A stretch of DNA of 64,000 bases, taken from contig NZ_JANFQP010000001.1 in the NCBI RefSeq assembly GCF_024436175.1, positions 1 to 64,000 on the forward strand. Reading direction: 5' to 3'. Numbering within the stretch: position 1 is the first letter of the stretch; each line of letters starts with the position of its first letter. Below are positions 1,899-4,174 of the stretch, one piece after another. The notes beneath the pieces are model-generated. The model was given only the letters and a program-made list of their open reading frames with translations, did no database searches and was not told where the DNA came from. A program made the translations under genes and the position numbers. This DNA is from Kaistella montana (lineage in GTDB: Bacteria; Bacteroidota; Bacteroidia; Flavobacteriales; Weeksellaceae).

Positions 1899-2444
1899 AT
1901 GAAAATAAAACCGACCCCACTCCAAGACTGCTACATAATAGAACCCACAATTTTCGAAGACGAAAGAGGGTATTTCTATGAAAAATTCAATGAGCAAAAA
2001 TTTGAAGAGCTTACCGGAATGAATGGCCATTTTGTGCAGGACAATATTTCCAAATCTTCTTATGGAGTTTTGCGAGGTATTCATTTGCAAAAAGGCGAAC
2101 ATGCACAGGCAAAATTGGTTTCTTGTCTCGAAGGGAAAGTTTTCGATGTTGCGGTAGATTTGCGAGAAGATTCCCCAACTTTCGGACAATGGTTCGGGGT
2201 GGAATTGACTCCGGAAAATAAATTGCAGCTCTATGTTCCTAGAGGTTTCGGTCATGGTTTTTCCGTATTGAGTGAAACTGCAATTTTTTCTTATAAATGC
2301 GATAATTTCTACCATAAAGAATCGGAAGGAAGTGTTATCTGGAACGATAAAGACCTCAATATCGACTGGAAATTACCAGCAGATAAGGTGCTTCTTTCTG
2401 AAAAAGACAGCCAATTGCCTACTTTCGCGGAGAAGAATTTTTGA
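1899..2444 (+). CDS. rfbC: dTDP-4-dehydrorhamnose 3,5-epimerase
   Basis: This cytoplasmic enzyme epimerises C3 and C5 of dTDP-4-dehydro-6-deoxyglucose on the way to dTDP-L-rhamnose for surface polysaccharides. The 181-residue length is normal. The family motifs are visible: EDERGYFYE near residue 20, FVQDNISKSSYGVLRGIHLQ (residues 46-65) with the catalytic His of RGIH, the DLREDSPTFGQW block and YVPRGFGHGFSVLSE. It opens a plus-strand rfb cluster with its own promoter. The usual neighbours rfbB and rfbA come only after a repeat-embedded foreign-looking gene, and rfbD, which would complete the pathway, is not in the window. Confidence 0.95.
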   Translation: MKIKPTPLQDCYIIEPTIFEDERGYFYEKFNEQKFEELTGMNGHFVQDNISKSSYGVLRGIHLQKGEHAQAKLVSCLEGKVFDVAVDLREDSPTFGQWFGVELTPENKLQLYVPRGFGHGFSVLSETAIFSYKCDNFYHKESEGSVIWNDKDLNIDWKLPADKVLLSEKDSQLPTFAEKNF

Positions 2445-2449
2445 GGAAA

Positions 2450-2479
2450 GGTTAGAAAGTTAAGAGGTTAAATAGTTAG
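2450..2479 (+). repeat. Left arm of a 30-bp inverted repeat
   Basis: This segment just after rfbC is the reverse complement, with one mismatch in 30, of the segment at 2614-2643. It consists of GGTTAGAAAGTTAAGAGG-type units. The arms are 134 bases apart and could fold into a long hairpin in a read-through transcript. Confidence 0.85.
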
Positions 2480-2613
2480 AAAGCATATTTGTTTTAAGAA
2501 AATTAACTGAAAACCAATTTAGTGAGTAGCCAAACTCGACTAACCCTATTAGACCTAACCAAGCCGCCTAACTTAACCTACACAACCTTTTTTCCAAATA
2601 TTGCACCAACCCT

Positions 2614-2643
2614 CTAACTACTTAACCTCTTAACTTTCTAACC
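2614..2643 (+). repeat. Right arm of the inverted repeat, TTAACC-type units
   Basis: This arm continues as imperfect 8-9-base units (CTAACTACT, TAACCTCT, TAACTTTC, TAACCTTC) up to about 2653, six bases before the four-helix-bundle start codon. The strand bias is strong, with pyrimidine-rich sequence on the plus strand. Confidence 0.85.
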
Positions 2644-2659
2644 TTCTAACCCCAAAAGA

Positions 2660-3013
2660 ATGACCTCCCACAAAGACTTACAGGTTTATCAAGAATCTTT
2701 GCTGTTGGTGAAAGATGTTTATTCCTTAGTGGCTCTTTTTCCAAAGGATGAGCTTTTCGGATTAACTTCGCAAATGAAAAGATGTGCGATTTCAATCCCA
2801 TCCAATATCGCAGAAGGCGGCGGAAGAAAGGGTGGTGCTGAATTTATGAGATTTTTGTATATTTCTTTGGGTTCTTTAAGCGAATTAGAAACTCAATTAG
2901 ATATCGCCGTAATGCTTAATTTTTGTGAAAAAAGAGAAGATATAATCAAAAGAATATTCTACATTAAAAACATGCTGTCAAAACTTATCATAAGTCTAAA
3001 CAAAACCAAATAA
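2660..3013 (+). CDS. Four-helix-bundle protein (S23/IVP family)
   Basis: The 117-residue protein carries the hallmark signature of the family first found in 23S rRNA intervening sequences: [20 protein letters not shown], then [20 protein letters not shown], with four amphipathic helices over the whole length. Members form pentameric bundles and are distantly related to the Avd accessory proteins of diversity-generating retroelements; their cellular role is unsettled. No rRNA, reverse transcriptase or variable repeat is nearby. The gene is bracketed by TTAACC-like repeats on both sides and separates rfbC from rfbB, so it looks like an inserted cassette. The family call is firm; mobility is inference. 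Confidence 0.9.
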
Positions 3014-3020
3014 ACATTAT

Positions 3021-3072
3021 AACCTCTTAACCACTTAACCTTCTAACCCCTTAACCTTTTAACTTTTTTACC
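3021..3072 (+). repeat. Second TTAACC-type repeat tract after the four-helix gene
   Basis: At least five imperfect units of the TTAACC(T/C)TC kind follow the four-helix gene and run to within 8 bases of the rfbB start codon. They are in the same orientation as the tract before the gene and inverted relative to the tract after rfbC. Confidence 0.8.
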
Positions 3073-3079
3073 ATAAAAA

Positions 3080-4174
3080 ATGAAAAATATCATCATCACC
3101 GGAGGTGCCGGATTTATCGGTTCCCACGTCGTAAGAGAATTTGTTAAAAATAATACGGACAAGAAAATCATCAACCTTGATGCATTAACCTACGCCGGAA
3201 ATCTTGAGAACCTAAAAGACATCGAAAACGAACCCAACTACGTTTTCGAAAAAGCAGATATTACCAAAGTAGACGAACTTCGTAAAGTATTTGAGAAACA
3301 CCAACCCGATGCAGTTGTTCATTTAGCTGCAGAAAGCCACGTGGACCGAAGCATCACCGATCCTAATGCATTTATTAACACCAATGTTGTAGGAACTGCC
3401 AATTTATTGAATCTCTGTAAAGAATTCTGGACCTTAAATCCCGAACATTCCCACGGAAATTTCCCGGACGGACCACGCGGGAATTTGTTCTACCATGTTT
3501 CTACCGATGAGGTTTATGGGAGTTTAGGTGAAACAGGATTTTTCTTAGAAACTACCGCTTACGATCCACAATCGCCCTATTCTGCAAGTAAAGCCGCTTC
3601 CGATCACTTGGTTCGAGCTTATGGAAACACTTACGGAATGCCGTTTATGGTGTCCAATTGCTCCAATAACTACGGTCCCAATCACTTCCCGGAAAAGCTG
3701 ATTCCGCTTTGTATTTCGAATATCATTAATGAAAAACCGCTTCCAATTTACGGTGACGGAAAATATACCAGAGACTGGCTTTTCGTTATCGACCATGCTA
3801 AAGCGATTCACCAATTGTTTTTTGAAGCAAAAACCGGGGAAACCTACAATATCGGAGGTTTCAACGAATGGCAAAACATCGATTTAGTAAAAGAACTCAT
3901 CAAACAGATGGATGAAAAACTAGGAAAACCAGCGGGCTACTCCGAAAAACTGATTACCTATGTGAAAGACCGTCCAGGCCACGATAAGCGTTACGCCATT
4001 GATGCTACCAAAATCAATAAAGACTTGGGCTGGAAACCATCCGTAACTTTCGAACAAGGATTAAGCAAAACCATTGACTGGTTCCTCGAAAATAAAGAAT
4101 GGCTGGAGAATGTGACGAGTGGTTCTTATCAGGATTATTATAATGAGCAATATGCAGAACGCAGCAAACAATAA
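3080..4174 (+). CDS. rfbB: dTDP-glucose 4,6-dehydratase
   Basis: This NAD-dependent extended short-chain dehydrogenase converts dTDP-glucose to dTDP-4-dehydro-6-deoxyglucose, the common precursor of many deoxysugars. The Rossmann motif GGAGFIGSHV is at residues 8-17, VHLAAESHVDRSI near 85, the catalytic triad region HVSTDEVYGSLGE near 140, and YSASKAASDHLVRAYG with the YxxxK pair near 170. The 364-residue length is normal. The gene starts right after a TTAACC repeat tract and lies 62 bases before rfbA. It was probably once contiguous with rfbC. Confidence 0.96.
   Translation: MKNIIITGGAGFIGSHVVREFVKNNTDKKIINLDALTYAGNLENLKDIENEPNYVFEKADITKVDELRKVFEKHQPDAVVHLAAESHVDRSITDPNAFINTNVVGTANLLNLCKEFWTLNPEHSHGNFPDGPRGNLFYHVSTDEVYGSLGETGFFLETTAYDPQSPYSASKAASDHLVRAYGNTYGMPFMVSNCSNNYGPNHFPEKLIPLCISNIINEKPLPIYGDGKYTRDWLFVIDHAKAIHQLFFEAKTGETYNIGGFNEWQNIDLVKELIKQMDEKLGKPAGYSEKLITYVKDRPGHDKRYAIDATKINKDLGWKPSVTFEQGLSKTIDWFLENKEWLENVTSGSYQDYYNEQYAERSKQ

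Follow-up and report, generated by a model that had tools for sequence, protein, structure and literature searches.

An S23 four-helix gene with inverted octamer arrays between rfbC and rfbB: a probable intervening-sequence-type cassette in an mRNA operon

In this study, the window is the whole stretch of DNA analysed, 64 kb in length. An insert at about 2447-3075 of the window lies between rfbC and rfbB, and an IVP/S23 four-helix gene is the sole gene inside it. Since the insert has the anatomy of the rRNA intervening sequences (IVS), it was taken as an IVS-type insertion cassette living in an mRNA operon. This is probably what it is, with steps of pairing and movement that we infer.

The cassette would be a small semi-autonomous element in which a single IVP/S23 gene is combined with inverted arrays whose degenerate unit is 7-8 nt long. 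It would lodge, mostly in sense, in the gap between co-transcribed genes, and would therefore ride on the transcription of the host operon with no gene broken. Apart from its location in mRNA operons, it would be an element of the same kind as the intervening sequences of 23S rRNA. When the element is copied or kept, the substrate would be the paired arms in the form of a DNA or RNA hairpin. They would be acted on by an S23 pentamer or by a host enzyme that S23 guides, and RNase III could cut the paired transcript by analogy with rRNA.

The insert and its octamer arrays

The features of the locus are as follows.

1899..2444, plus strand: rfbC, dTDP-4-dehydrorhamnose 3,5-epimerase (ORF); upstream host gene, adjoining rfbB in most congeners
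2448..2480, minus strand: left arm, four YTAACYNN octamers in reverse sense; begins 3 nt past the rfbC stop codon
2481..2607, no strand: AT-rich spacer with decayed TAACC words; retained in genomes G009, G017 and G031
2608..2653, plus strand: right arm 1, YTAACYNN array in plus sense; a 33-nt part is 97% complementary to the left arm
2660..3013, plus strand: IVP/S23 four-helix gene, 117 aa; PF05635 and TIGR02436, nearest solved structure 2GSC
3020..3072, plus strand: right arm 2, YTAACYNN array in plus sense immediately 5' of the rfbB start; encloses the gene together with the left arm, to which it is 77% complementary
3080..4174, plus strand: rfbB, dTDP-glucose 4,6-dehydratase; downstream host gene, present in 34 other genomes at 86-98% identity
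4175..4236, no strand: rfbB-rfbA junction; empty in the window, AAAGCAT-type words only

In a profile search, the S23 gene product matched PF05635 (E 3.6e-33; 114.4 bits against a cut-off of 33.8) and TIGR02436 (3.7e-32; 110.8 bits against a cut-off of 24). The closest solved structure was 2GSC (3.9e-23). The first-pass annotation, which had a four-helix S23/IVP gene splitting rfbC from rfbB, was correct on this point.

All repeats of the insert belong to one degenerate period-8 array, YTAACYNN. Within the 64-kb window, 11 copies of the two-unit pattern YTAACYNNYTAACY were counted, every one at 2450-3064. The expectation in dinucleotide shuffles was 0.13, and none of 100 shuffles reached 11. 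A 30-bp inverted repeat with one mismatch had been described around the gene. The repeat is real and slightly longer (33 nt with one mismatch, 2448-2480 and 2613-2645), but it does not bracket the S23 gene. Both arms are upstream, so that bracketing by this repeat was rejected. Further TTAACC tracts, also described before and after the gene, were located at 2646-2653 and 3020-3072. The pair that does enclose the gene is the weaker one, formed by 2448-2477 with the array at 3013-3042 at 77%. The scores of the left arm against the two right arrays were 61 and 42, with a maximum of 30 in 300 shuffles. The RNA fold of the insert gave z = -4.1, with the 33-nt helix just 5' of the S23 start.

The order in the window copy is left arm, 127-bp spacer, right array, S23 gene and second right array, and the order is the same in G009 and G017. 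Since the best-pairing right array is 5' of the gene and a second right array is 3', the window copy looks rearranged or compound. It is not a clean two-armed cassette and may be a compound of two elements. No target-site duplication was recognised when the junctions were read; the arms span the interval from stop codon to start codon. The insert contains no transposase, and no transposition event or enzyme was found. These results count against the cassette reading.

Some other ORFs of the region were also observed. A 396-aa ORF at the start of the contig (2-1192) has no Pfam or NCBIfam match. Two short ORFs, at 1621-1820 of the window and at 19864-20067 of contig C2 of the same genome (L044), are alike by eye and encode putative small DNA-binding proteins. 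Both lie near array-rich spacers.

Occupancy of the rfb junctions in the genus

The comparison set consisted of 36 genomes of the genus, with the window genome as G000. In many congeners, rfbC and rfbB are only 9-15 bp apart, which is an empty junction. An S23 gene is present there only in the window genome and its three nearest relatives (G009, G017 and G031), whose rfbB is 97-98% identical. The insert is therefore an insertion relative to empty sites and not carried by all relatives, consistent with the first-pass view of a cassette, not a simple spacer. In G017 (C15:457571-457908, L111), the S23 gene at this junction is broken by a frame split and a stop, and the surrounding arrays persist.

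Empty sites were also found at the next junction. The occupancy of rfbB-rfbA in 35 genomes was 16 empty, 10 with S23, 8 with GxxExxY and 1 with another filling, and the gap was 4-7 bp in most of the empty genomes. On the flanking-protein tree, this occupancy needs 16 changes, compared with a mean of 16.3 for shuffled labels. Three states occur within the window's own four-genome clade. The change count at the shuffled level and the three states in one clade showed that the rfb gaps are filled and emptied often, and turnover at rfbB-rfbA is fast. The turnover could have proceeded by loss, exchange or insertion, and the data fit all three. The mobility proposed in the first-pass annotation is supported by this comparison of relatives, but no movement event was observed.

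The GxxExxY genes at rfbB-rfbA (TIGR04256) are those of G004, G011, G016, G017, G024, G029, G031 and G035 (loci L111, L112, L120, L130, L132, L134, L139 and L142). They have complementary flanks with the unit AATTCGTG, and GxxExxY arms at other loci are of the ACCACAGAGATACGG type. In the flank test of 28 GxxExxY loci, the own sum was 925 against 542 permuted. In G027 (L124), the rfbB-rfbA gap is filled by a 151-aa ORF that is neither S23 nor GxxExxY.

Arms of S23 genes at other loci

S23 genes elsewhere are bracketed by inverted arrays of short units. The unit varies with the S23 type, and the left and right arrays are complementary. The arms are TTGAGTAA/TTACTCAA at rfbB-rfbA, AATCAAGA/TCTTGATT at carA-carB, and TTAGAAG/CTTCTAA and TTGAGACT/AGTCTCAA at fadB-fadA, where the operon names carA-carB and fadB-fadA are our reading of the neighbouring proteins. 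The best arm period was 7 or 8 in 57 of 65 and 49 of 53 cassettes.

To measure complementarity, the left 150 bp were reverse-complemented and aligned locally to the right 150 bp. The median own score of 97 congeneric cassettes was 28, against 16 for crossed flanks, and the median for 85 other genes of the window genome as controls was 18. The left/right complementarity is thus specific to the cassette. Scores above the 99th percentile of the control genes were reached by 45 of the 97; about half stay at or below it, which counts against the cassette reading. For non-redundant congeneric S23 genes (<60% protein identity, n = 32), the own sum was 908, and 100,000 permutations had a mean of 537 and a largest value of 676. 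For 76 S23 loci from named genomes of many phyla (Bacteroidota, Cloacimonadota, Clostridia, Proteobacteria, Nitrospirae and candidate phyla), the own sum was 2309 against 1204 permuted, with a largest value of 1425. No permutation attained the observed value in either set.

The arms were compared between S23 types and between junctions. For the same S23 type at another junction, the mean cross score was 26.9, and 48% of the pairs scored 24 or more. For another S23 type at the same junction, the mean was 17.7, and 6% scored 24 or more. In the strict version, with neither neighbour homologous, the values were 22.5 and 17.5. The pairs are not independent, and the p-value of the less strict comparison is therefore descriptive only. 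A pure site effect, with the arms as a property of the locus, was rejected by these scores, the strict version included. Arms and S23 type are co-inherited, and the arm units go with the S23 type to a greater degree than with the site. For example, L089 and L094 have different neighbours, are 77% identical and have a cross score of 34, equal to their own score of 34. One S23 type carries the same arms elsewhere, and a single locus can hold other types with other arms; both findings again supported a cassette. For some S23 types (L190, L191), the arms were unrelated between loci, which counts against it. Near orthologues, with proteins 65-85% identical, gave no clear sign of coordinated arm change; own scores were close to cross scores, because the arms are still shared.

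Between co-directional genes, the sense to antisense ratios of S23 were 92:0, a number that includes orthologous copies, and 54:2. Two cyanobacterial S23 copies are antisense to both neighbours, and antisense copies count against the cassette reading. The S23 protein is under strong purifying selection: the median dN/dS was 0.074 in 69 pairs, with synonymous sites near saturation (median dS 1.2).

In at least 4 of 8 S23 loci read on cyanobacterial plasmids, the gene is flanked by inverted heptamers of the known STRR look, such as GGGAGTA, GGTGACA and GGGTGTA. The STRR of cyanobacteria are reportedly short repeats (Mazel 1990). On plasmids of Pseudanabaena galeata and Anabaena sp. 90 (L317 and L319, 995-1363), an S23 cassette lies between cas6 and cas4, and cas1d of type I-D is downstream of cas6-S23-cas4 in Anabaena sp. 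90. On pNe_5 of Nostoc edaphicum (L314, 995-1363), an S23 gene with inverted heptamers lies antisense between two ribonucleotide reductase genes. No match was found in the search for phage carriers of S23 cassettes.

The arrays also occur without S23. TAACC arrays are present at about 14 sites of the window genome, about 11 of them intergenic and without S23; such counts for the whole genome are based on searches by pattern, family and stretch. Since the S23-free sites lie within word mosaics, the repeats also have an existence of their own. In long intergenic regions of the polysaccharide locus (C2 of G000 at 19.2-20.2k, 23.0-23.6k, 26.2-26.7k, 53.4-55.1k and 59.8-60.1k; L044, L045), mosaics of many 7-8 nt word arrays were observed. 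The word drifts along the array with period 8 in phase, as in the series ACTCAATC ACTCAAAA ACTCAACC TTCTAACT TTCTAACC. The first-pass annotation had named intergenic repeats without four-helix genes as evidence against its cassette, and this was half borne out.

The S23-free sites fit an explanation in which STRR-type 7-8 nt arrays spread independently by slippage and template switching, and S23 tolerates the arrays or is captured by them. Template switching would also keep two nearby arrays complementary. The mosaics lie far from S23, with a changing word and a constant period, the arms have no wobble excess, and about 70 inverted heptamer pairs are known in Xanthomonas with no S23 link described (PMC4692102). 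However, complementary flanks are rare in control genes, different S23 types at one locus have different arms, one type has matching arms across loci, and the only array matches of G025 bracket a (broken) S23 gene. Repeats independent of S23 are therefore considered unlikely.

The wobble pairs of the arms bear on a role in RNA. G-U and A-C numbered 108 and 173 in the genus, and 92 and 137 outside it. G-U was not favoured over A-C; this gave no support to selection for sense-transcript pairing and counts against the cassette reading as well. Crossed pairs in the genus gave the same G-U/A-C ratio, so composition may explain the result. Pairing of the arms in the transcript is possible; arm-to-arm copying at the DNA level by template switching would equally preserve complementarity. 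The insert could instead be an RNA-processing or regulatory module, in which a stem cut by RNase III uncouples S23 and downstream expression and mobility is secondary or absent. The fold with its helix just 5' of the S23 start, the sense orientation, the position of the arms directly between stop and start codons and the cleavage of rRNA IVS by RNase III (PMC4990558) are consistent with such a module. The lack of preference for G-U, the antisense copies and the junctions without any insert in many congeners make it improbable.

Surface-sugar loci are often exchanged, the window locus is one of them, and the S23 type at rfbB-rfbA is identical in eight genomes, but an ordinary accessory gene that belongs to no element and was swapped along with O-antigen genes through homologous recombination is very improbable, since S23 genes are not restricted to such loci, similar cassettes are found in the carA-carB, fadB-fadA, cas6-cas4 and nrdB-nrdA operons, and one S23 type occurs in unrelated operons with the same arms.

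Comparison with known systems

The IVS-type cassette may be part of something wider. Tentatively, bacteria-wide minimal mobile elements could consist of one protein, S23 or GxxExxY, and type-specific inverted 7-8 nt arrays, with the protein recognising or maintaining its own arms. The rRNA IVS, STRR and Xanthomonas heptamers would be known fragments of these elements. The cassette links three things so far described apart, namely rRNA IVS, the heptamers of cyanobacteria and Xanthomonas, and the S23 orphan family. To our knowledge, the role of the S23 protein and the origin of the rRNA IVS have been questions since about 1990, and we know of no partner protein for the 7-nt repeats of cyanobacteria and Xanthomonas so far. 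A cassette of protein plus arms makes the nucleic acid bound, the preference of each type for its own unit and the route of movement testable. If true, it would account for a large part of the orphan genes annotated as 'four helix bundle protein' or 'GxxExxY protein' that are found within operons of bacteria.

The Coxiella burnetii 23S rRNA IVS contains an S23 ORF with tandem heptamers 5' of it; its terminal inverted repeat is 28 bp long and is interrupted by one mismatch and a bulge, and RNase III cuts within the stem (PMC4990558). The window insert likewise has an S23 ORF and an inverted repeat with one mismatch, 33 nt here and 28 bp there. Tandem short units beside the ORF (octamer arms of period 8 in the window), sporadic occurrence and sense orientation are also shared with rRNA IVS. 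The tie to rRNA intervening sequences is thus closer than the first-pass annotation had said, since the anatomy of the Coxiella IVS is the same, heptamers included (PMC4990558). Complementary termini enclosing the gene were found family-wide; in the window, only the weaker pair of 77% encloses it (score 42, shuffle maximum 30). Unlike in rRNA IVS, the best-pairing arms of the window copy are both 5' of the ORF, and the strong purifying selection on the congeneric S23 protein is a further difference. The insert is located between the protein genes rfbC and rfbB, not in rRNA helices 9/25/45, and is therefore described as IVS-like and not as an rRNA IVS.

The heptamers of Xanthomonas and Nostoc are GGGAATC and GGGGA(C/T)T, with 70-75 convergent inverted pairs in Xanthomonas (PMC4692102). 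Like the arrays reported here, they are degenerate tandem units between aligned ORFs, near stop or start codons and often in inverted pairs. The S23-free TAACC arrays of the window genome resemble STRR and the Xanthomonas heptamers in their independent occurrence (PMC4692102). Unlike the Xanthomonas heptamers, the present arrays are linked with genes for S23 and GxxExxY and come in many unit sequences; the Xanthomonas and Nostoc paper makes no mention of 23S or four-helix genes (PMC4692102).

PF05635 has been likened to Avd (PMC10053308), the accessory protein of diversity-generating retroelements, which is a four-helix family related to S23. One S23 type of the studied loci matches the Avd model NF033474 weakly (9.3e-8, below cut-off). 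No reverse transcriptase was found at the window locus, and RVT_1 is absent from 20 of the 36 genomes. The window genome is among these 20 and differs in this from diversity-generating retroelements. A resident reverse transcriptase as a requirement was rejected by this absence.

GxxExxY shares the rfbB-rfbA junction and complementary flanks with S23 but is an unrelated protein family. We know of no rRNA home for it. In the full-text literature searched, which did not cover subscription papers, four papers give the S23 family by accession or model name; no link of the family to inverted heptamer arrays outside rRNA was found, and nothing on octanucleotide repeats or IVS together with mobile elements. 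Taken singly, the S23 family, the rRNA IVS and the heptamers were already known, and joining them would be a wide and testable generalisation.
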